Assembly (NCBI GenBank): GCA_017429945.1
Contig: JAFRNY010000024.1
Location: 1-39,837, forward strand
Reading direction: 5' to 3'
Source of the DNA: Bacteroidaceae bacterium
GTDB lineage: Bacteria > Bacteroidota > Bacteroidia > Bacteroidales > Bacteroidaceae
DNA: 39,837 nucleotides
Positions 2,840 through 35,568 of this stretch are shown in pieces. The notes beneath the pieces were generated by a model, which saw nothing but the letters and a program-made list of their open reading frames with translations, was not told the DNA's origin and did not search any database. The first letter of the stretch is position 1, and each line of letters starts with the position of its first letter. The position numbers were made by a program, and so were the translations under genes.

Positions 2840-5800
2840 ATGAAAAAGTTTAGATTCTTATTGGCCTTACTGATGGCTATGACAGGTATCACAAGTGCAC
2901 AGGCACAGGAAGCGTATGCCGTAGTGACGAAGAACGCCGACAACAAACCTGTTGCGGTGACGTTCTACTACGACACGTACAAGGCTTCTTTCGAAGGTCA
3001 GCCTAATATTACTGTTTTCGACGACCTGAGCAGCGACAATGCGTATTCTGAATGGGCGTGCGCCACGCTCACCAGCGCCACCTTCGCCCCCACCTTTAAG
3101 AACTACACCGGCCTGACGACACTCAGCCGCTGGTTCTGCGATTGCTCTAACCTGACCTCCATCACAGGTTTAGAGAACCTGAACACAGCGAATGTCACCA
3201 CGATGGCAGACATGTTCAGTCGGTGCAGGGCATTGACCGAGCTTGACCTCTCGGGCTTCAACACAGCCAACGTTACCGAAATGGGTTGGATGTTCTTCCT
3301 TTGCGACAAGCTACAGACTATCTATGTAGGTGACGGTTGGACTATAGCCGATGGCGCTGTCACAACCTCTATGTTCTCGACTTGCGAGGCTCTGGTTGGC
3401 GGCCGCGGTGCTTTATACAACAGCAATAAGATTGACGGCGCGATGGCACACATCGACGGCGGCGTCGCCAATCCCGGCTACTTCTCGAGGAAAGGCGACC
3501 CAGTGGCCTATGCCGTAGTGGAGAAGAACTCCGACAACCAGCCCGTGGCCGTCAGCTTCTACTACGATACGGCCAAGGACAGTCGCGCCACAGAAAACAC
3601 TACCATTCTGACGCGGCTGAACGCAAATACAGCTGCTCCGAACTGGACCTGCGCCACGCTCACCAACGTTACCTTCGATGAGAGCTTTGGCTACTATCAT
3701 GACCTCACGAGCCTCAAGCAGTGGTTCTACTATTGCACGGTGTTGACTGGCATCACTGGGTTGGAGTATCTCAACACCGAGAACGTCACTACAATGGAAG
3801 AAATGTTCAGAGGATGCGGGGCCCTCATAGAGCTGGACCTGACGAACTTCAACGTTGCCAATGTCACTTCTACTCAAAATATGTTCAACCAGTGTACGCT
3901 CCTGGAGACCATCTTCGCAGCTACCGACTGGAACACGGCGACGAACACCAAAAGTAGCGGTATGTTCTATGGTTGTTCGAAACTGATGGGAGGGGCCATG
4001 ACTTTATATGACTCTAGCAACAATAACGACAAGACCTATGCTCATCCAGACGGCACCGCCAATCCCGGCTACTTCACAGACCCGACGCAACCGCGGCCTT
4101 ACGCCGTAGTGACGAAGAACGATGGCGGCAACCCCGTCGCGGTCAGTTTCTTCTACGACACGCAGATGGCCAGCCATAGTGCCGACAACGTCACCATTCT
4201 CAGAGCACTGAACGGCTATACTATAGCACAAGGCTGGACGGGCGCCACGCTCACCAGTGTGACCTTCGACAGCTCTTTCGGCAATTTCCATGGTCTGAAG
4301 TCATTGAGGGAGTGGTTCAAAAATTGCACCAGCCTGACGTCGATAGACCTCTCGAACCTCCACACCGAGAACGTGACGACGATGGAGAGCATGTTCTCTG
4401 GCTGTACGGGCCTCACCGAGCTCGACCTCTCGGGCTTTGACATGACGAATGTCACGAACACGGCAAGCATGTTCAACTCCTGCCAAAACCTCGAGACTAT
4501 CTATGCGGCAGCCGATGCCGACTGGACTGGCAATGCCATCACCAACAGCGCGCTGATGTTCTCTAGCTGCGATAAGTTGGTAGGCGGCAACGGTACAGAT
4601 TGCATAAACAATATTTTAGACAAGACCCGTGCCTGCATCGACGGCCTCGCCGGCAAGGCTGGCTATTTTACCGACAGGAATGCTCCGCGGGCTTACGCCG
4701 TGCTCTCGGTAGACCAAACGACGCTGAACTTCTACTACGACACGCAGTTCGCATCGCGCAAGGCTGCCGCAGAGAATGCCGGTGCAACTTTCGTGCTCAA
4801 GCTGAACAACCATAGTAACTACAACAATCCGCCTGTATGGGCAACGTCGGCGCTCACCACTGTCAACTTCGACAGCACCTTCAAGGAGTTTAAAGGCCTG
4901 ACGGGACTCAACAACTGGTTCAGAGGCAGTACGGCGCTCGCCACCATCAACGGCCTCGGGAACCTCAACACCGAGAACGTCACCACGATGTACTACACGT
5001 TCTTCAACTGTCGTTCCCTCACCTCGCTTGACCTCTCGGGCTTCAACACCGCCAAGGTCACCACGATGAGCTATATGTTCAATGGCTGTTCGGCTCTGGA
5101 ATCGATTACCTTCGGCTCCGCTTTCACCACCGCTGAGGTCACTTCAATGTCCGACATGTTCCGCAACTGCTCCGCCCTCACAGCCCTTGACCTCTCGGGC
5201 TTCAACACTGCGAAGGTCACCACGATGTACGATATGTTCGCTGGTTGCTCCTCCCTTGCCGCCATCACCTTCGGCCTGCAGTTCACTACCGCCCAGATGA
5301 CATCGATGAACAATATGTTCTATAACTGCTCTGCACTCAAGGAACTTGACCTCACCACTTTCACTGTAGAGGCGCTCACAGACGCAAGCTATATGTTCCA
5401 AAACTGCTCTATGCTTGAAACCATCTATGCAGAAGCCGATGCCGACTGGACTGGCGGTACGTTCAGCTCTTCAAGCATGTTCGCAGGCTGCCCGAAACTC
5501 GTTGGTGGCTACGGCACTGTGTTTTATAGTTCCGACAAGAGCTACGCCCGGACAGACAAGGAAGGCCAGCCCGGCTACTTCACCGACCCGGCTACCGCTC
5601 GCCCCTACGCCCTTCTCTCGGCCGACAAGACCGCCGTGACGTTCTACTACGACACCGAGCTGGCCACCCGCCGAGTCGCTGCGGAGAGCGAAGGCGCTAC
5701 ATTCGTGCTCAAGCTGAACAACAGCAGTAACGGTAGCAGCAACAAGCCAGTGTGGGCCACCGCGACGCTGAAGAACGTAACCTTCGATGCCTCGTTTGCC

Positions 5801-15000: not shown

Positions 15001-18000
15001 GAGTATGCCCGACTCGACAGACCGTCGTCGAGCACACCGGGTTACCTCACAAGGATGCAGGGCGCCTACGCTAACCTTACGTCAAACACCCTCACCTTCT
15101 ACTGCGACGACCAGCGCTCGCTGCGCGAAGGTCTGACATTCAGCCTGAATACGGGCGATACAGAGCCCGAATGGTCTTATAGCAGCTCCGGCCTCGTCAT
15201 GCACGTCGTCTTCGACCCCTCTTTCGACAACGCCCGCCCAACGTCAACGGTCTATTGGTTCTCCTACATGCAGAACCTTGAGGACATCGTCGGGATCAAG
15301 CATCTGCATACCGACAAGGTGACAGATATGAGTCAGATGTTCGAAAACTGCAGCAAGCTGACGAGCCTTGACGTGAGCCATTTTGATACACGCAATGTCA
15401 CTAGCATGCGTAGGATGTTCTATGGCTGCCAGCGTCTCGAAACTCTGGCCACTGAGGACTGGAACACTCAAAGCCTCAGAAACGCATCTTATATGTTCAT
15501 GAACTGCACCAGCCTCACGGAACTCAACCTGAGCGGCTGGAATACCTCCAACCTGCAATACATATCCAACATGTTCTACGGCTGCTCGGCACTGAACACC
15601 ATCTATGCCGCCGATTGGAACCTGGAAAACATTACGCAACACGACACATTCCAGGGATGCATCCAGCTCGTAGGCGGTGCCAATACGACATACACAGGCT
15701 ATGAGAGCGCCACAGCCGGCTACGACCACCTCGATGGCGGCACCTCCAACCCAGGCTTCTTCACTGATCCCGCACAGCGCGAGGCCTATGCCTACTACTC
15801 CGAGGCCGACAGCACACTCACGTTCTGCTACGACACCAAACGTAGTACACACGCAGAGACATACGACGTGCTGAATACGACAAGCTACCCCGGATGGTAT
15901 AATAATCGTGCTGACATTACCAACGTGGAGTTCATGCCGTCGTTTGCTGCAGTGCAACCCAAGAGTAATTATAGCTGGTTCTCCGGCATGAAAAAACTGA
16001 AGCGTATCGACGGCCTACAATACCTCAACACCAGCCAGGTGACGTCGATGTACCAAATGTTCAAGGATTGTCAGCTACTGACAAGCCTCGATGTCAGCGG
16101 CTTCATCACCGACAATGTGGTATATATGACTGATCTATTCAGCGGCTGCTCCGCACTGACCACCCTCGACGTGAGCGGCTTCAACACCTCCAAGGTGACG
16201 AATATGAACAACATGTTCAACAATTGTCAGGCACTGACTACCCTCGCCGTGAGCCATTTTAACACGGGGAAGGTGACGAATATGAACTATATGTTCTATA
16301 ATTGCAGTAGCTTGACGATCCTCGACGTGAGCGGCTTCAACACCTCTAAGGTGACAAACATGGGCAGCATGTTCAGTGGCTGTGAGAAACTGACTTCGCT
16401 CGACGTCAGCGGTTTCAACACCTCCAAGGTGACGAACATGAGCGGTATGTTCAGCCGCTGTAAGGTTCTGACCGCCCTCGACGTGAGCGGCTTCAATACC
16501 GGCAACGCGACTGACATGAACGCTATGTTCAACGAATGTCAGGCTTTGACCAGCCTGGATGTCAGCGGTTTCATTACCGACAAAGTAACGAACATGCAGA
16601 TGATGTTCTACGGCTGTAAGGCTCTGACCGCCCTCGACGTAAGCAGCTTCAACACTGCCAACGTGATGTACATGACATGGATGTTTGGCTACTGTTCGGG
16701 GTTGACCAGCCTCGACGTGAGCAACTTCGACACCAGCAAGGTGACCACCTTTGGCTCTATGTTCAGTGGCTGCAAAGCACTCACAGAGCTCGACCTGAGC
16801 AACTTCGACACCAGCAATGCAACGAACATCAGTGCCATGTTCAGCGACTGCTACGAACTGATAAGTGTCGACGTGAGTAGCTTCGACACCAGCAAGGCCA
16901 CGAGCTTGGGCTCGATGTTCTTCGGATGCAAGAAGCTGACAGAACTCGACCTAAGCAGCTGGAACACCGCCAACGTAACAAGCTTCTACTACACGTTCTA
17001 TCAATGCTATGCGCTTAAAACCATCTACGTGGGCAACGGCTGGAACACAGATGCCGTGACGGAATCACGATTCATGTTCACCAGTTGCACCAAGCTCGTG
17101 GGAGGCAATGGCACGGTCTACAGCGACTCCCATTCCGACAAGGAGTATGCCCGCATCGACGGCGGCACAGACAACCCCGGCTACCTTACCCTCGCACCTG
17201 CACGCGAAGCCTATGCCTGCTACACTGAAGCCGACAACACACTCACCTTCTACTACGATATCAAGAAGGCGCAGCGTGAAGGCACGAAGTATGCCGTAAC
17301 TTGGACGGGAAATTATCCTGGCTGGACTAACTGGAACGATGGCAATGAGGCTGTCACAACCGTGACCTTCGATAAGTCGTTCAACAGCTATCACGGGATG
17401 ACGAAGACGGGTTATATGTTCGTTAATATGAAGAACCTCACGACGATAAACAACCTCCAGTATCTCCACACAGAGAACGTCACTAATATGGAGAATATGT
17501 TCGCTCTCTGCGGCAAGCTTACGGACATCGATGTCACTCATTTCGATACGCACAATGTCACCAACATGGGCAGCATGTTTAGGAATTGCAGCCTGCTGAC
17601 ACAAATCGACGTCTCGAATTTCAACACATCAAAGGTCACCAGCATAAGTATGATGTTCTATTCCTGCAAGGCACTGACCAGCCTTGACATAAGCCACTTC
17701 GACACAAGTAAAATTACGTCTTTGTTCTCCACATTCTCTGGATGTGAGTCGCTCACAGAACTCGATTTGTCTAACTTCAGCTCCTCGAGTCTGAGAGATA
17801 CCAATGGGACATTCGAGGGCTGCAAAGGTTTGACCCGTCTTGACATATCGAATCTTAACACCTCCAACGTGACTCGGATGAGTTCTATGTTCCAAGGCTG
17901 CAGTGCTTTGACCAGTCTCGATGTATCACACTTCGACACACAGAATGCTACAGAAATGACGTCGATGTTCGCCGGATGCCAAGTCACATCACTAGACTTG

Positions 18001-18819
18001 AGCGGATTTAACACGGCGAAGGTAACCAAAATGGCTGGTATGTTCCAGGGCTGTTCGGGACTGACTACTCTCGACGTCTCAAACTTCGATACACACAATG
18101 TCGAGTCCATGATTTCTATGTTCAACGGCTGTCGGGCACTGACCTCGCTCGATGTGAGCGGCTTCAATACCGACAAAGTGACGAATATGAGCTACATGTT
18201 CAACAATTGTCAAGCACTGACTACCCTCGACTTGAGTGGCTTCAATACTGCCAATGTGACGAGTATGAGCACTATGTTCTCAGGCTGTCGGGCACTGACC
18301 TCGCTCGATGTGAGCGGTTTCAATACCGCTAATGTGACGAGTATGTACGCGATGTTTAACTCTTGTCAGGCACTGACTACCCTCGACTTGAGTGGCTTCA
18401 ATACTGCCAATGTGACGAATATGTACGCGATGTTCGCTTCCTGCTCAAATCTCACTACTATCTACTGTAACCACGATTGGCAGAAGGACGGGCTGAACTC
18501 CGACTACATGTTCAACGCCTGCAGCAAGATCAAGGGAGGTGCAGGAACGACCTATAACAGCGGCAAAATTACGGCCGTCTACGCACACGTTGATGCTGCC
18601 GACAATCCCGGCTACTTCACCTATAAGGCAAACTTCCAGATTGGCGACGTCAACGGAGACGGCAGCATCACCATTGCCGACGTGACAGCCCTCGTCAACA
18701 TCATCCTCGGCAAGGACACCACAGGACAGTACAACCACGCAGCAGCCGACGTGAACGGCGACAATAGCATCACCATCGCCGACGTGACGGCCCTCGTCAA
18801 TATCATACTGGGGAAATAG
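9022..18819 (+). CDS. Giant BspA-like (DUF285) surface protein with C-terminal type I dockerin, 3265 residues
   Basis: The largest gene in the window. Residues 1-22 form a signal peptide (ending RLYA). Ten blocks follow the plan of the upstream gene: an opening like AYAVY...TLTFYYD, then T.VVFDPSF..VRPTST..WF, then 26-residue DUF285 units (SLDVSGFNTSKVTNMS.MF..C), then a closing GYL or GYF. Block 1 (to about residue 743) and blocks 8 and 9 (about 470 residues each) carry many extra units; the others are near 210 residues. The last 60 residues are a dockerin with DVNGDGSITIAD and DVNGDNSITIAD. No enzyme domain, transmembrane anchor or type IX sorting domain is evident. It probably works at the cell surface with the shorter upstream protein, perhaps as an alternative adhesin. 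Near-identical DNA repeats inside the gene make copy-number change by recombination likely. Confidence 0.9.
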   Translation: MTRRFFVMLLAILAMGTARLYAAEAYAVAVWDSYDANRRLGLTFYYDNNRSSHENAIGEYVFSLNSGSDKPEWILDRPGLNPNDISYVQFDSSFANYRPTSTSHWFDHLYGLESFRGTANLNTSQTTNMSYMFFCTQIEDLDLRWLNVSNVTDMSYMLAGCRRTQSLNISGWNTSKVTNMSYMFEGYNQPVLNLTFDTSSVTDMSYMFYGAHGLQWLTFGGDWSTANVVNMESMFSSCESLGTLDLNNWNVSKVTNMSDMFDGCELLSTLYTSGWNTASVTNMSGMFCGCEALPSLNAQSWNTANVTNMSSMFYGCKSLQTITWGSNWNTGKVETMSNMFRDCENLKQNSLSNVANWNIGSATRLSGMFYHCKKLTSLNLSSWNTSKVTDMSGMFDGCTSLGSVSGLNNWNTASATSMASMFKDCSNLTTVGGLTSLNTSNVTDMSNMFNGCAALQGVSDLTSWNTSNVTDMSGMFQGCNSITSLNLSGWDNQELTTVKNMFKDCNIGSVNLSGWNNPQLTSISGLFMGSGLGTINMSNFVGPALTDISDLFRDCFSLSAADLSSWNTPNIANMRRIFYGCHSLQTINMDGWSTDQTTDIGGMFYGCYNLAALDLSSWNTSNVTNMSGLFNDCFILSDPKISNWNTDNVTSMYSLFSDCKRLTEIDLSPWNTANVTDMGHMFDGCTNLTTIYVGGGWSTEKVTDSYEMFEDCLKLVGGCGTTYTSWHIDKSYACIDGGADGRGYLSPMPYVVYANGALTFYADGNRDAHAEETIYYLNSDIQPPSWLEKKDDITTVVFDPSFANVRPTSANSWFGEMTHLTSIEGLEYLHTDFMTTTTFMFYRCSSLRSLDLSHFNTANVENMQGMFELCLSMTQLDLSSFNTSKVTDMRSMFYNCNNLTTISVGPGWNTDAVENSAYMFENCAALKGSNGTAYQSSNPKDKTYAHIDAEDNPGYLSDQTLMGIYVSFVPETGTLTFRHDVRRGSFGDNAFDLNQNDENPGWYANRKAVTNVVFDFSFSDVHPKTAYSWFRGMSNLTDIGGIEYLCTDSITNMESMFFSCSKLTTLDLSAFNTSLVQNMENMFGGCSALTAIYVGAGWNTENVTMSLDMFEGCASLVGGNGTAYDENHTDKEYACLNGGTAIPSYLTDNLPQEPYAIYSDGTLTFCYDGLKTLRANTYDLNTGDEAPGWLEHNADITAVVFDPTFVNVQPTSTYGWFDSMSQLSDISGLQYLNTSQVTNMASMFNACTGLTILDLGSFATANVENMSAMFSGCSALTTIYAGTGWSTASVTASDGMFAGCLQLAGAAGTQFNPDNTNADYAVVDGINDAAGYLSYMVYATITHAYGSDMVYNYLTFFYDGMHAQRSLTEPVYRLNTGTEEPEWLTRAADFHVVMFDRSFQSVKPTTTYHWFRGMTALTTFTCDYLNTSEVTNMSGMFEGCTALTTFMPKGWNTGKVTDMSSMFKGCTALTDVDMSSLNTAQVANMSSMFQGCTALTTLGLNAFATSHVTNMSNMFNGCSALTTISVGDDWSTGAVTSSTGMFTGCTSIQGSSGTTYNASYTDKSRARVDDGTSSPGYLSYLTSEAYAAYNPTTRTLTFYHDRWRSTRGDAENTFPITNATAWRKDIVHVVFDPSFDDVRPTETAQWFYNRGNLEDITGIEYLHTESVTNMASMFSGCSKLSAVDLSHFNTCNVTNMRHMFYQCSSLTTLDLSSWETGNVTDMTEMFRLCTSLETIYVGEGWNTDNVTSSSQMFWDCNNLHGSSYTRYNSSNPDDKTYARVDQGTTQPGYLSLKAKAYAYVFDGTLFFRYDGDYKRLGQEYTLYDISDTGTTPPGWAEQSAEITGVRFEMSFNKAYPTSTYMWFANMPNLTDIVGMDEYLVTDSVTNMSYMFSGCSSLTELNLLSFNTQHVTDMSYMFARCSALTEIDLSGFVVQQVTNMTGMFQGCSKLQTINVRSDWNPSGVFSGTSANMFAGCFDLVGEYGTDYDASHTDIEYARLDRPSSSTPGYLTRMQGAYANLTSNTLTFYCDDQRSLREGLTFSLNTGDTEPEWSYSSSGLVMHVVFDPSFDNARPTSTVYWFSYMQNLEDIVGIKHLHTDKVTDMSQMFENCSKLTSLDVSHFDTRNVTSMRRMFYGCQRLETLATEDWNTQSLRNASYMFMNCTSLTELNLSGWNTSNLQYISNMFYGCSALNTIYAADWNLENITQHDTFQGCIQLVGGANTTYTGYESATAGYDHLDGGTSNPGFFTDPAQREAYAYYSEADSTLTFCYDTKRSTHAETYDVLNTTSYPGWYNNRADITNVEFMPSFAAVQPKSNYSWFSGMKKLKRIDGLQYLNTSQVTSMYQMFKDCQLLTSLDVSGFITDNVVYMTDLFSGCSALTTLDVSGFNTSKVTNMNNMFNNCQALTTLAVSHFNTGKVTNMNYMFYNCSSLTILDVSGFNTSKVTNMGSMFSGCEKLTSLDVSGFNTSKVTNMSGMFSRCKVLTALDVSGFNTGNATDMNAMFNECQALTSLDVSGFITDKVTNMQMMFYGCKALTALDVSSFNTANVMYMTWMFGYCSGLTSLDVSNFDTSKVTTFGSMFSGCKALTELDLSNFDTSNATNISAMFSDCYELISVDVSSFDTSKATSLGSMFFGCKKLTELDLSSWNTANVTSFYYTFYQCYALKTIYVGNGWNTDAVTESRFMFTSCTKLVGGNGTVYSDSHSDKEYARIDGGTDNPGYLTLAPAREAYACYTEADNTLTFYYDIKKAQREGTKYAVTWTGNYPGWTNWNDGNEAVTTVTFDKSFNSYHGMTKTGYMFVNMKNLTTINNLQYLHTENVTNMENMFALCGKLTDIDVTHFDTHNVTNMGSMFRNCSLLTQIDVSNFNTSKVTSISMMFYSCKALTSLDISHFDTSKITSLFSTFSGCESLTELDLSNFSSSSLRDTNGTFEGCKGLTRLDISNLNTSNVTRMSSMFQGCSALTSLDVSHFDTQNATEMTSMFAGCQVTSLDLSGFNTAKVTKMAGMFQGCSGLTTLDVSNFDTHNVESMISMFNGCRALTSLDVSGFNTDKVTNMSYMFNNCQALTTLDLSGFNTANVTSMSTMFSGCRALTSLDVSGFNTANVTSMYAMFNSCQALTTLDLSGFNTANVTNMYAMFASCSNLTTIYCNHDWQKDGLNSDYMFNACSKIKGGAGTTYNSGKITAVYAHVDAADNPGYFTYKANFQIGDVNGDGSITIADVTALVNIILGKDTTGQYNHAAADVNGDNSITIADVTALVNIILGK

Positions 18820-32494: not shown

Positions 32495-32502
32495 TAATTT
32501 TG
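32495..32502 (+). promoter_or_regulatory. -7 promoter element of the alpha-galactosidase gene
   Basis: TAATTTTG fits TAnnTTTG, with TTTC (near TTTG) 19 nt upstream at 32472-32475. It overlaps an in-frame ATG at 32500, supporting the later start at 32551. Confidence 0.5.
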
Positions 32503-32550
32503 CACCAAACTTACGCTTATTCTTATCTAACTTTCATTATTCATAATCGT

Positions 32551-34722
32551 ATGAAACGACTTATCCTAACCACAACGCTCGCTGCTGCCGCACTCTTTGC
32601 GGCTTCGACCACGGCAGCTGCAAAGGACGTGTTCGTCAACACTCCCAAAACCAGTCTGATGCTCTCCGTCAACGAGGGCTCCACCCCCCGCATCCATTAC
32701 TATGGCTCGCGTGTGAAAGCTTCGCAGGCCCAGGAAATCTATGATGCCATGAGCATCAACTACGACGCTTATCCCGCCTTCGGGCGCCAGAGCTACGACG
32801 AGACGGCGCTCAGCGTGACGCACGCCGATGGCAATATGTCCACCGAACTTGCCATCACCGGTTCGCGCCAGGAGGGCGACCTCACCATTATCTCGATGAA
32901 AGACAAGAAGTACAATTTCTTCGTCGACCTCTACTATAAGGCCAACGATAAGAGCGACGTCATCGAGACTTGGACCGTTATCCGCAACGGTGAGAAGAAG
33001 CCCATACGTCTCGAGCAGTACGCCAGCGGCGTGATGACATTGCGTCAGGAAGGCGCCTGGCTTACGCATTTCCATGGCACCTGGGGTGCTGAGGGTCAGA
33101 TGACCGAGGAGCCTCTCACGGCCGGCCTTAAGAATATCGTCTGCCACGACGGCGTGCGCGCTGGAATGGACGACCGTGCCGAGGTGATGATATCGCTCGA
33201 CGGCAAGCCGAAGGAGAACAGCGGCCGCGTAATCGGTGCAGCCCTGTGCTGGACGGGCAACTACAAGCTGCGCATAGAGACGCGCGGCAAATACCGCCAC
33301 ACCCTTATCGCCGGCATCGACGACCTGCACACCGCCTACACGCTGAAACCTGGCGAGTCGTTCCAGACGCCTGAGCTCGCCCTCACCTACAGCGAAGAGG
33401 GCAAGGGTGGCGTAAGCCGTGCATTCCATTGCTGGGGACGCAATGGCAAGCTGCACAACGGCAAGGGCCTGCGCGAAATTCTGCTTAACTCATGGGAGGG
33501 CGTTTACATGAACGTCAACCAGGAGGTGTGCGAACAGATGATGGACGGCATCAAGGAACTCGGCGGCGAGCTCTTCGTGGTTGACGACGGATGGTTCGGC
33601 CGCAAATATCGTCGCACCAACGACAGTCAGGCCCTCGGCGATTGGATCACCGACACCGAGAAGTTGCCCAACGGCGTGCCCGCACTGCTCAAGGCTGCTG
33701 AGGACCGTGGCCTCAAGTTCGGTATCTGGATCGAGCCTGAGATGACGAACTCCAAGAGCGAGCTCTACGAACAGCACCCCGACTGGGTCGTGGCTCATCC
33801 CACGCGCGAGCTGGCCATGGGGCGTGGCGGCACACAGCTCGTGCTCGATATGTCGAATCCTAAGGTTCAAGACTTTGTATTCGGCGTCGTGGACAATCTC
33901 ATGAAGGAGAATCCCCGCCTGCACTACATCAAGTGGGACTGCAATATGTCGATGAACAACTACGGCAGCAGCTACCTCAGCGGCGACCGCCAGAGCCACC
34001 TCATCGTAGATTTCCATCGCGGCCTGCGTGCCACGCTGGAGCGCATCCGTGCCAAATATCCCGACCTCGTCATCCAGCTCTGCGCCAGCGGCGGCGGACG
34101 TGTCAACTGGGGCTTCATGCCTTACTTCGATGAGTTCTGGGTCTCGGATGACACCGACGCTCAGCAGCGCCTCTTCATCCAGTGGGGCACCAGCCATTTC
34201 TTCCCCACGATGGCCATGGCACAGCACGTCAGCGCTTCGCCCAACCATCAGACCGGGCGCGTCATTCCTCTCAAGTTCCGCTTTGATGTGGCTATGACAG
34301 GTCGCCTCGGCATGGAGATGAAGCCCAGCGACCTCAACGAACGCGAGCGTGAGTATGCCAAGAAGGCTGTAGCGTTCTACAAGGAGATCCGTCCTATCAT
34401 ACAGCTTGGCGACCAGTACCGCCTTCTCTCGCCCTACGAGGGCAATGGCTTCTGCAGCCAGATGTTCGTCACCGAGGACAAGAGCGAGGCCGTGTTTTTC
34501 TGCTACAAGTTTGAGAACTACGTAGATCTCCACACGCCGCGCTGGCACATGGCCGGTCTTGACCCCGACGCCACCTATCGCCTCAACGAGTTTGAGTGTG
34601 CAGAGCGCACCCACTACTTCGAAGGCAAGACCTTCAGCGGCCGCTTCCTCATGGAGACGGGCCTCGACGCCTATCTCAGCCGTCAGTTCTCGAGCCGCGT
34701 AATCCGCCTGAAGCGCATCTAA
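32551..34722 (+). CDS. Exported alpha-galactosidase, GH36 family
   Basis: Releases alpha-linked galactose from oligosaccharides such as raffinose or galactomannan side chains; probably periplasmic. 723 residues from the chosen ATG: signal peptide 1-24 (ending TAAA, no lipobox), an N-terminal beta-sandwich, then the (beta/alpha)8 domain with FVVDDGWFG (342-350), IWIEPEM (392-398), KWDCN (461-465, nucleophile Asp463) and SDDTDAQQR (532-540, probable acid/base Asp533), and a C-terminal beta domain. The frame is open 17 codons further upstream, but that ATG lies in the promoter. Transcribed alone between two terminators; no SusC/SusD pair or regulator is adjacent, so this is not a classical utilization locus. 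Confidence 0.92.
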   Translation: MKRLILTTTLAAAALFAASTTAAAKDVFVNTPKTSLMLSVNEGSTPRIHYYGSRVKASQAQEIYDAMSINYDAYPAFGRQSYDETALSVTHADGNMSTELAITGSRQEGDLTIISMKDKKYNFFVDLYYKANDKSDVIETWTVIRNGEKKPIRLEQYASGVMTLRQEGAWLTHFHGTWGAEGQMTEEPLTAGLKNIVCHDGVRAGMDDRAEVMISLDGKPKENSGRVIGAALCWTGNYKLRIETRGKYRHTLIAGIDDLHTAYTLKPGESFQTPELALTYSEEGKGGVSRAFHCWGRNGKLHNGKGLREILLNSWEGVYMNVNQEVCEQMMDGIKELGGELFVVDDGWFGRKYRRTNDSQALGDWITDTEKLPNGVPALLKAAEDRGLKFGIWIEPEMTNSKSELYEQHPDWVVAHPTRELAMGRGGTQLVLDMSNPKVQDFVFGVVDNLMKENPRLHYIKWDCNMSMNNYGSSYLSGDRQSHLIVDFHRGLRATLERIRAKYPDLVIQLCASGGGRVNWGFMPYFDEFWVSDDTDAQQRLFIQWGTSHFFPTMAMAQHVSASPNHQTGRVIPLKFRFDVAMTGRLGMEMKPSDLNEREREYAKKAVAFYKEIRPIIQLGDQYRLLSPYEGNGFCSQMFVTEDKSEAVFFCYKFENYVDLHTPRWHMAGLDPDATYRLNEFECAERTHYFEGKTFSGRFLMETGLDAYLSRQFSSRVIRLKRI

Positions 34723-34765: not shown

Positions 34766-34800
34766 CTGCGGCCCCGCCTTAATGAAAGACGGGGCCGCAG
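34766..34800 (+). terminator. Hairpin terminator of the alpha-galactosidase gene
   Basis: CTGCGGCCCCG (34766-34776) pairs perfectly with CGGGGCCGCAG (34790-34800). Only a weak T-run follows (ATGTTTC). Confidence 0.75.
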
Positions 34801-34810
34801 ATGTTTCGCA

Positions 34811-34942
34811 GTCTCACCAATGAGACTGATTAGTCTCACCGGTTAGATGGATTTGTCTCACTGGTGAGACACGGTTATTCAACCGGTTGAATTAGCCAAT
34901 ACAACCGGTTGAATTAGGCAATTTAACCGGTTGAGTTTTTCG
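34811..34942. repeat. Array of six seamless 22-nt units, each a 16-nt dyad plus 6-nt linker
   Basis: Unit starts are 34811, 34833, 34855, 34877, 34899 and 34921. The 16-nt cores are GTCTCACCAATGAGAC, GTCTCACCGGTTAGAT, GTCTCACTGGTGAGAC, ATTCAACCGGTTGAAT, ATACAACCGGTTGAAT and ATTTAACCGGTTGAGT. All have their symmetry centre at the same place, and the arms change between GTCTCA/TGAGAC and ATTCAA/TTGAAT. From 34943 to 35067 (up to the GNAT stop) I see only T-rich sequence with degenerate GGTCGTTTTT/GACCGTGTTT-like repeats and no gene. Confidence 0.9.
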
Positions 34943-35067: not shown

Positions 35068-35568
35068 TTAGAGCTTTCGCTGATAAGCCAGCCGTTCGTC
35101 GCCCGAAGCAAGGTAGATAATGCCGCAGTATGCGAAGCCGTTGTGCAGCAGTAGATGCTGCATAATCTTATTGTCGCGATGAGTGTCGATGCGGATGTTT
35201 GGGTCGCGCTCGATGCAGAAATCAATGATGCTGCGGAAGATACCGTGCACCTGTGGCAGGCTGCCAATGCGGTGGATGACGTGGTAAGGCTTGGAATCAT
35301 CGAGCCATGCTCCGTCGAAGATCTCAGCATAGGTAGGTTCGGGCGATGGCAGACAGGCGAAGTAAGCCACGACGATGCCGTCGTCCTCAACGACGAAACT
35401 GCCCTGGCACTCAATGTCGGCTTCTACGGCTGCCAGCGACGGATAGTTGCCAGCCCATTGATTGAGGTTGCCGTCGGCCCTCATGATGCTTTTTGCCTGC
35501 TCGAAAACGTGCATGACAGCTGCAGCATCGGCAGGCAATGTCGTTGGGCGAATGATGCGGTGGCTCAC
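35068..35568 (-). CDS. GNAT-family N-acetyltransferase
   Basis: 166 residues of the Gcn5-related fold, which uses acetyl-CoA to acetylate an amine; the substrate is unknown. Recognisable are the N-terminal RPTTLPADAAAVMHVF, the central strand segment SFVVEDDGIVVAYFAC, and the C-terminal RIDTHRDNKIMQHLLLHNGF then CGIIYL, typical of GNAT proteins common in Bacteroidales. The start is a GTG at 35568 (reading SHRIIR next); no ATG offers a full N-terminus. It lies 26 nt behind the hydroxyproline-dehydratase-like gene and is probably cotranscribed. Confidence 0.8.
   Translation of the reverse strand: MSHRIIRPTTLPADAAAVMHVFEQAKSIMRADGNLNQWAGNYPSLAAVEADIECQGSFVVEDDGIVVAYFACLPSPEPTYAEIFDGAWLDDSKPYHVIHRIGSLPQVHGIFRSIIDFCIERDPNIRIDTHRDNKIMQHLLLHNGFAYCGIIYLASGDERLAYQRKL

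Follow-up and report, generated by a model that had tools for sequence, protein, structure and literature searches.

According to the accessible parts of two reports, REP and BIME elements with their RAYT proteins are extragenic palindromes located mainly downstream of genes, in co-directional or convergent gaps (PMC2817692, PMC3733652). In Porphyromonas gingivalis, the BrickBuilt elements consist of seamless intergenic 23-nt tandem repeats at 19 places, and 22-nt tandem repeats are mentioned for strain W83 (PMC4596501, in the portion available). For the LacI family, the available text reports that two adjacent residues of the recognition helix set two operator bases (PMC2978694). Here, we describe an array of palindromes which can be compared with all three systems. 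Noc, SlmA and MatP likewise each bind many palindromic sites round the chromosome. These are single conserved sites, whereas the sites described here form tandem lattices whose sequence shifts among the species of one genus.

The window, i.e., the whole stretch of 39,837 nucleotides that was analysed, comes from a Bacteroidaceae genome which is 82% complete and is called G000 in the following. Its array at positions 34811 to 34942 consists of six 16-nt dyads with 6-nt linkers and one common symmetry centre, and lies between two convergent genes. The features concerned are:

32500 to 34722, plus strand: GH36 alpha-galactosidase gene, ending 88 nt ahead of the array
34766 to 34800, unstranded: GC-rich inverted repeat CTGCGGCCCCGCCTT / AAGACGGGGCCGCAG, as read from the letters, upstream of the array and outside the lattice
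34811 to 34826, unstranded: unit 1, halves GTCTCACC and AATGAGAC, DUF6078-type arms, 6/8 pairs
34827 to 34832, unstranded: linker TGATTA
34833 to 34848, unstranded: unit 2, halves GTCTCACC and GGTTAGAT, left half of GTCTCA type and right half changed, 6/8 pairs
34849 to 34854, unstranded: linker GGATTT
34855 to 34870, unstranded: unit 3, halves GTCTCACT and GGTGAGAC, DUF6078-type arms, 7/8 pairs
34871 to 34876, unstranded: linker ACGGTT
34877 to 34892, unstranded: unit 4, halves ATTCAACC and GGTTGAAT, second class (ATNCRACC half-sites), 8/8 pairs
34893 to 34898, unstranded: linker TAGCCA
34899 to 34914, unstranded: unit 5, halves ATACAACC and GGTTGAAT, second class, 7/8 pairs
34915 to 34920, unstranded: linker TAGGCA
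34921 to 34936, unstranded: unit 6, halves ATTTAACC and GGTTGAGT, second class, 6/8 pairs
34937 to 34940, plus strand: TTTT straight after the last dyad
35068 to 35568, minus strand: ORF of 166 aa, the array's other, convergent neighbour
2098 to 2223, unstranded: second 22-nt array, units resembling the second class, weak dyads of 5, 3, 5, 5, 4 and 3 pairs
2237 to 2296, unstranded: third 22-nt array, units of the type ACTTTCGG and GCGAAAGT, dyads of 7, 6 and 6 pairs

The initial annotation had described six seamless 22-nt units with a fixed centre and had proposed selection on the dyad at this step; the first is confirmed and the second is supported. The dyads, starting at 34811, 34833, 34855, 34877, 34899 and 34921, have 6, 6, 7, 8, 7 and 6 complementary pairs of 8. 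The window was shuffled 100 times with its dinucleotides kept. When a dyad is defined by at least 6/8 pairs and any period from 14 to 60 is allowed, the longest dyad run is 2 in 85 of these shuffles and 3 in 15, versus 6 in the window itself. This run is reached at period 22, and other tested periods except 44 give at most 4. Taking the window together with 20 further stretches of the same genome, which were picked by similarity to the window array, runs of at least three occur at periods 22 (10), 44 (8) and 33 (1); the remaining periods from 14 to 44 yielded none, nor did one shuffle of each of the 21 stretches. CRISPR, which had already been set aside at first sight, is rejected, as the repeats are parted by 6-nt linkers only and there are no unique spacers. 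Both of the other 22-nt loci noticed earlier in the window exist, and the third array has good dyads whereas those of the second are weak. Searches of the window with Rfam (gathering score) and for tRNAs gave no match, and the 166-aa ORF has no Pfam match. In relatives, 19 loci besides the window's own match this ORF, and an array comparable to that of the window was absent from them. At one of these loci (L233), a single unconvincing triple of another family lies more than 1 kb from the gene.

A search of the genome and its relatives, as proposed in the initial annotation, uncovered a dispersed family. When the window array was used as a blastn query on 31 genomes, 47 matches were obtained in G000; 3 of 18 congeners matched as well, and none of 12 genomes of other families did. 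A covariance model built on 27 three-unit stretches has matches in 15 of 61 genomes, namely G000 and 14 of 36 congeners, and in none of 24 from other families. It counts 98 matches in G000, 60 in G016, 41 in G041 and 28 in G017, where one palindrome may count on both strands. The window and 40 stretches selected for arrays make up 41 array entries with 198 units, the G000 locus L060 being counted twice. Some 40 dispersed lattices of putative dyad sites were read in G000, and the window array is one of them. Two main unit classes occur there, one with halves GTCTCACC and GGTGAGAC, and one with ATNCRACC and GGTYGNAT. GTCTCA units are present in 10 of the 61 G000 stretches read; most units read in this genome belong to the second class (ATTCAA type) and are outside the type matched to DUF6078. 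In 5 of 7 mixed arrays (L023, L049, L053, L056 and L057; a plain count), the classes alternate, at least partly, at the exact 22-nt step.

The arms differ between congeners. At places picked by the model, they read TTCCCACC and GGTGGGAA in G016 and, at one locus, in G018, GTGCCA(N4)TGGCAC in G017, GTATCA or GTCTCA in G041, and GTCTCA in G003 and G010. Judged from these sequences, the 22-nt step and the dyad register are conserved across several congeners and the arms are species-specific. One matching gap, in which both neighbours correspond, carries different arms in two species (L026 in G000 and L030 in G016). Two further pairs of gaps flanked by similar genes (L009/L041 and L068/L038) also differ in arm class between two species. 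The genome G012 has no covariance-model match and nevertheless contains 22-nt dyad arrays with other cores, GAAAGGTTAACCATTA and ACTTAACGTGTTAAGT; in 337 kb sampled irrespective of arrays, period 22 accounts for 30 of 62 tandem-repeat rows. Its loci L242 to L261 (e.g., L248:6154, L244:17315 and L247:5735) include 22-nt dyad arrays with the cores GGTTAACC, ACGT and CCGCGG. Such arrays are not universal: 109-140 kb of G004 and G035 contain at most one 22-nt dyad array, and tandem rows of period 22 are absent from the 62-100 kb sampled in each of four genomes of other families. The general process supposed at the outset is real in so far as other species possess 22-nt dyad arrays with sequences of their own.

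We found no published description of 22-nt dyad arrays of this kind in the open-access literature, among the limited set of papers listed. With BrickBuilt, they share the occurrence in Bacteroidales, the intergenic position and the tandem build; the BrickBuilt unit is depicted as a logo (PMC4596501). BrickBuilt has a leader, a tail and IS5-type terminal repeats, whereas the arrays here are without common borders, and a partner protein is not mentioned in that part of the paper (PMC4596501). A MITE with borders was rejected for the present arrays: the 400 nt on each side of the 41 array entries share no border, and scattered matches reach at most 81 nt at few loci.

A protein partner is suggested by the genes next to the arrays. 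In G000, a GTCTCA array (L013) sits 3' of a 144-aa gene, whose homologues in G003, G016 and G017 have a 3'-end array as well, with arms of each genome's own type. Pfam assigns the G000 protein to DUF6078 (PF19555) with 114 bits versus a gathering cut-off of 27; the family was found once in this genome. The arms of unit 1 in the window equal those 3' of this gene (L013/L399), and the linker GGATTT recurs behind unit one of the arrays next to DUF6078 in L013 and L047. Registers were then located automatically, on the criteria of 6-bp arms, a spacer of 4 or 5, a linker of 6 and two or more units. This finder reports an array directly 3' of DUF6078 in 31 of 74 flanks versus 0 of 73 at the 5' side, where the background is 5/574 for 3' flanks, 2/556 for 5' flanks and 0/375 for shuffles. 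Among genes that have the main motif it scores 30 of 38, compared with 1 of 37 among the rest, and most main-subfamily DUF6078 genes bear an array of putative sites just past the stop codon. A reading of the first 32 DUF6078 loci, in which the wrong ORF was chosen for at least L401, L402 and L407, had shown a strong triple on the 3' side in 14 and on the 5' side in none. For the control gene IspD, the only array among 30 loci is that at L052 of G000, which was known beforehand; the 29 relatives are without one. Among the other subfamilies, several have larger 3' dyads by eye which the finder missed, and for the MTEQ subfamily no 3' dyads were seen by eye. One distant subfamily (L389, L390, L392, L400 and L405) has nested 3' hairpins of greater length in place of the 22-nt lattice, their arms being CCAGTACC or GAGTCCCAC. 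Clusters of array-flanking proteins derived from translated arrays or shadow ORFs were set aside.

DUF6078 is present in 79 of 139 genomes of the genus above the gathering cut-off, in 82 of 139 at E <=0.001, and in none of the 37 genomes searched from other families. It also occurs in 2 of 11 genomes reached via other loci, with a third match in Candidatus Azobacteroides at E 0.03; viral homologues were not confirmed. In all five genomes in which both could be read (G000, G003, G016, G017 and G041), the dispersed arms equal the DUF6078-adjacent arms. G010 (88% complete) and G018 (80%) have GTCTC or TTCCC arrays, and a DUF6078 gene was not detected in them. The same applies to G012 with its other cores. 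For the second class, no convincing partner was found among remote DUF6078 homologues (loci read, and 11 genomes, beyond the two known genes).

Further evidence comes from the covariation of protein and array. The C-terminal motif of DUF6078 reads FGS-x1-x2-Q[FY]YRYR-G-ITP-QQ-V, where x1 and x2 are R97 and A98 in the G000 protein, counted from Met; in the numbering of the scripts they are 98 and 99. Two of the 31 automatic arrays were left out of the comparison, L456 for its wrong register and L473 as a member of another subfamily. Although the finder requires symmetry alone, the arms follow the pattern xTnnCA in each of the 29 arrays retained. In a mutual-information scan over all alignment columns, x1 ranks top for arm base 1 (z 6.8) and x2 for arm base 4 (z 8.6), and each removes the whole entropy of its base. 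With R, K or H as x1, base 1 is G (19 arrays), with E it is C (4), and with S, Q or C it is T (6). With A or P as x2, base 4 is T (13), and with R, S or T it is C (16). Residue classes and bases thus coincide in 29/29 arrays for either pair, where the residues were grouped after sight of these arrays. Base 3 is G in all eight arrays with x2 = R; the best column for base 3 is 70 in the numbering of the script, and x2 comes fourth. When x1, x2 and four residues beside them are left out of the tree, 6 changes are counted in base 1 and 5 in base 4. If each 70% cluster is represented by a single gene (18 genes), the observed association is reached by 1 of 20000 permutations for base 1 and by 0 of 20000 for base 4; with one gene per 60% cluster (13 genes), by 147 and 14 of 20000, respectively.

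Arms and residues were also compared at the level of genomes. Four of 139 genomes (G070, G014, G017 and G139) contain CTGCCA arrays around a 5-nt centre, and they are the four with an E R gene (x1 x2) read; in G139, G017 and G014 copies lie on contigs away from the DUF6078 gene. In this 23-nt variant, CTGCCA-TACTA-TGGCAG + 6 (L393, L395, L409 and L425), the spacer has 5 nt where the others have 4, and the linker is still 6. TTACCA arrays occupy four loci in G065, where the only Q T gene of all genomes read is located. They also occur once each in G064, where no DUF6078 was found, and in G072, where x1 x2 are H A, and these two are outside the code. The rule was then applied, as fixed before reading, to 38 held-out loci, including 18 passed over by the earlier motif pattern (L407 and L408 were unused). 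Arrays are present at 15 of the 38. For the three in the main subfamily, base 4 is right in 3/3 and base 1 in 2/2, the remaining residue having no rule. For the 12 in distant subfamilies, the rule predicts base 1 correctly in 1 (2 without rule) and base 4 in 4 (5 without rule). These failures indicate that the code or the register is not transferable, and we limit the rule to the main subfamily. By eye and post hoc, three further H S genes (L485, L490 and L492) have GTTCCA arms.

This covariation between residues and arrays points to a hitherto unrecognised DNA-binding protein and its putative sites. For the GTCTCA units, it strongly supports the dimer-binding option of the initial annotation. 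Like the LacI code (PMC2978694, in the part available), it links two adjacent residues to two positions within a palindromic site. It differs in that the two bases are non-adjacent here, that DUF6078 shows neither confirmed HTH homology nor a ligand-binding domain, and that its arrays lie at 3' ends, whereas LacI operators lie at promoters. DUF6078 proteins are about 145 aa long and have four conserved cysteines; those at positions 16, 21 and 27 are invariant and that at 56 is nearly so, which suggests a zinc site. The stretch S-x1-x2-Q-[FY]-Y-R resembles by eye the segment leading into TVSR in the LacI family. An hhalign comparison of the segment just after x1/x2 with LacI-type HTHs gave P 0.0012 at a probability of only 19%, a second run P 0.0019 at 14%, and a comparison with one LacI protein P 0.063. 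Since the aligned path starts after x1/x2 and, when extended, is one position off, the LacI equivalence is a lead and no test. Sequence searches of Pfam, NCBIfam, PHROG and the PDB returned no HTH in DUF6078, and the best hit of the PDB profile search, an aldolase at E 0.058, is not meaningful. A periplasmic-binding-like ligand domain is absent, as the protein of about 145 aa matches DUF6078 alone. An open-access search retrieved no literature naming the family, for which a candidate role and a recognition code are now proposed.

We consider it probable that DUF6078 binds DNA as a dimer and has a lattice of sites of its own close to the 3' ends of genes, in an organisation like that of REP and RAYT without a transposase, and that the GTCTCA units are its sites. 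A DUF6078 dimer would bind each palindrome, with x1 and x2 placed within the helix that reads the DNA. As 22 bp correspond to about two helical turns, this step would set the dimers on one face, such that cooperative binding may occur. Units of the second class would probably be bound by another protein of similar geometry, because they share the 22-nt step and are in some arrays interleaved with GTCTCA units. Bound lattices at 3' ends, particularly between convergent genes, may act as bidirectional roadblocks or boundaries. Among 44 intergenic arrays of G000 and relatives, 22 lie in co-directional, 19 in convergent and 3 in divergent gaps, versus 71, 32 and 30 for all gaps of at least 60 nt, array gaps included. 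The counts depend on crude gene calling, 12 further arrays overlap a called ORF, and the L013 array is scored as co-directional, though its adjoining DUF6078 gene makes it convergent. Arrays thus favour convergent gaps to a moderate degree. This bias was not seen for the arrays of G012 (5 co-directional, 4 convergent and 3 divergent, plus one in an ORF).

The main rival to a roadblock or boundary role is self-spread in the manner of REP and RAYT, which we regard as rather unlikely: DUF6078, perhaps with a host enzyme, would spread its own palindromes, gene ends would be the places of least harm, and there would be no host function. The gene does adjoin its own array, arms are species-specific and cognate copies are dispersed. 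The layout parallels that of RAYT and REP (PMC2817692, as far as available). The likeness extends to a cognate protein gene beside its own repeats, a species-specific co-evolving pair and a tandem or alternating arrangement (PMC2817692, PMC3733652, both in part). In spite of this, the partner here is DUF6078 instead of a tyrosine transposase, and it has no match to a nuclease or transposase family. The lattice is seamless, with 22 or 23 nt, and is confined to the 3' flank, as opposed to flanking on both sides. Arms stay constant while linkers vary by locus, and this also speaks against the selfish pair. A search for RAYT (Y1_Tnp, PF01797) gave one match in G000 and none in G016 or G041, despite their 60 and 41 covariance-model matches; since RAYT is missing from two array-rich genomes, membership of the arrays in the REP/RAYT system was rejected. 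In the arrays read, there is no GTAG or CGTC tag beside the palindromes, and linkers vary (AAGCCA, CGGCTT, GGATTT and others).

An array of RNA hairpins in 3' untranslated regions, with DUF6078 as an RNA binder or with the hairpins as an exonuclease block, appears improbable. It would agree with the 3' position and with the GTCTCA, TTCCCA and GTGCCA arms, which are complementary around variable centres, and the cysteines could form a zinc site of RNA type (best such Pfam match E 0.072, not significant). The arm changes speak against it. The initial annotation had seen compensating changes: both arms do switch jointly from GTCTCA to ATTCAA, yet in doing so they pass from one unit class to the other, and the halves are independent within a class. 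In 135 ATNCR/ATNCR units, position 5 of the two halves reads A/A in 36, A/G in 40, G/A in 32 and G/G in 27 (Fisher p 0.49), and at position 3 of the same units 20 are complementary versus 41.3 expected. DUF6078-adjacent arrays (29 arrays, 99 units) have 29 one-sided arm changes and none compensated. Within a class, arm changes thus break pairing freely. In arrays between co-directional genes, A.C mismatches exceed G.U on the sense strand (65 to 37, p 0.007), contrary to selection on an RNA stem. From the table of arm changes made alongside this comparison, the values for G000 are excluded, as chance matches inflate them. A family-wide covariation score lies above all 500 shuffles, because of the unit-class switches. 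The 5-nt centre TACTA is self-complementary around its middle base, which would be needless for a loop. Linker symmetry in G000 is not above shuffles (160/453 versus a shuffled mean of 183.3). We dropped the RNA hairpin with stepwise compensated stems as main reading, given the independent halves, the A.C excess and the 29 changes versus none.

Still less probable are bidirectional intrinsic terminators of several hairpins between convergent genes, acting without a dedicated protein. The 19 intergenic arrays in convergent gaps would suit them, and TTTT directly follows 9 of the 41 array entries; most arrays, however, have no T-run, many units are A+T-rich with mismatches, and both the residue-base covariation and the genome-specific arms would be left without explanation. 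Neutral minisatellites grown by slippage are very improbable, for although neighbouring units often have common linkers and G000 is rich in other short tandem repeats, the step is exactly 22 nt with alternating classes, symmetry keeps one register, and arms are identical genome-wide and covary with a protein.

The dimeric DNA-binding protein remains our preferred reading. It would tie intergenic repeats of Bacteroidales to a trans-acting protein outside the known transposases, and the boundaries of convergent genes in this order offer a testable setting for its role. There is also an evolutionary puzzle, as dozens of arrays diverge jointly between species with the 22-bp geometry unchanged. Only tentatively do we extend the reading further: DUF6078 might found a class of fast-evolving DNA binders which build and occupy tandem 22-bp dyad lattices at the 3' ends of genes by means of a simple two-residue code, several unrelated binder families might share this geometry, and the lattices might be lineage-specific bidirectional transcription boundaries which switch specificity jointly over dozens of loci. 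The supposition of several binder families draws on the ATNCRACC units and on G012, with its other cores and no DUF6078 detected.

Arrays with an ACCGGT core provide further leads. They were obtained from scans of at least 105 stretches of GTDB contigs and 46 of viral contigs, many of them GC-rich and armless, from which only stretches with matching arms were used. In other Bacteroidales, such 22-nt arrays, with differing arms, occur at several loci, namely in Porphyromonas bennonis (L074, L080, L081, L104 and L134), and others in Prevotellaceae UBA711 (L098 and others) and Parabacteroides PF5-6 (L122 and L165); DUF6078 was not found in the genomes of these three. In another phylum, multi-copy ACCGGT-centred 22-nt arrays are present in Actinomyces denticolens (L072, L078, L126 and L147) and A. 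gaoshouyii (L077 and L095), with the half-sites TTTCGACC and TCGAGACC.

Further tandem repeats were observed in addition to the dyad arrays. At L030 in G016, positions 1286-1790 hold more repeats of about 22 nt near the dyad array, of the type ttcaataagtctattgcaat and with unclear dyads. The window itself has short tandem repeats of 8/16 nt at 46-187 and of 11/22 nt at 225-430 (AGGTTTTG and TCCCTTTAACT, respectively). Repeats of 78/156 nt are located at 5016-5353 and 16069-18423 within two very large ORFs of 2010 and 3265 aa, which we take to resemble leucine-rich-repeat surface proteins.
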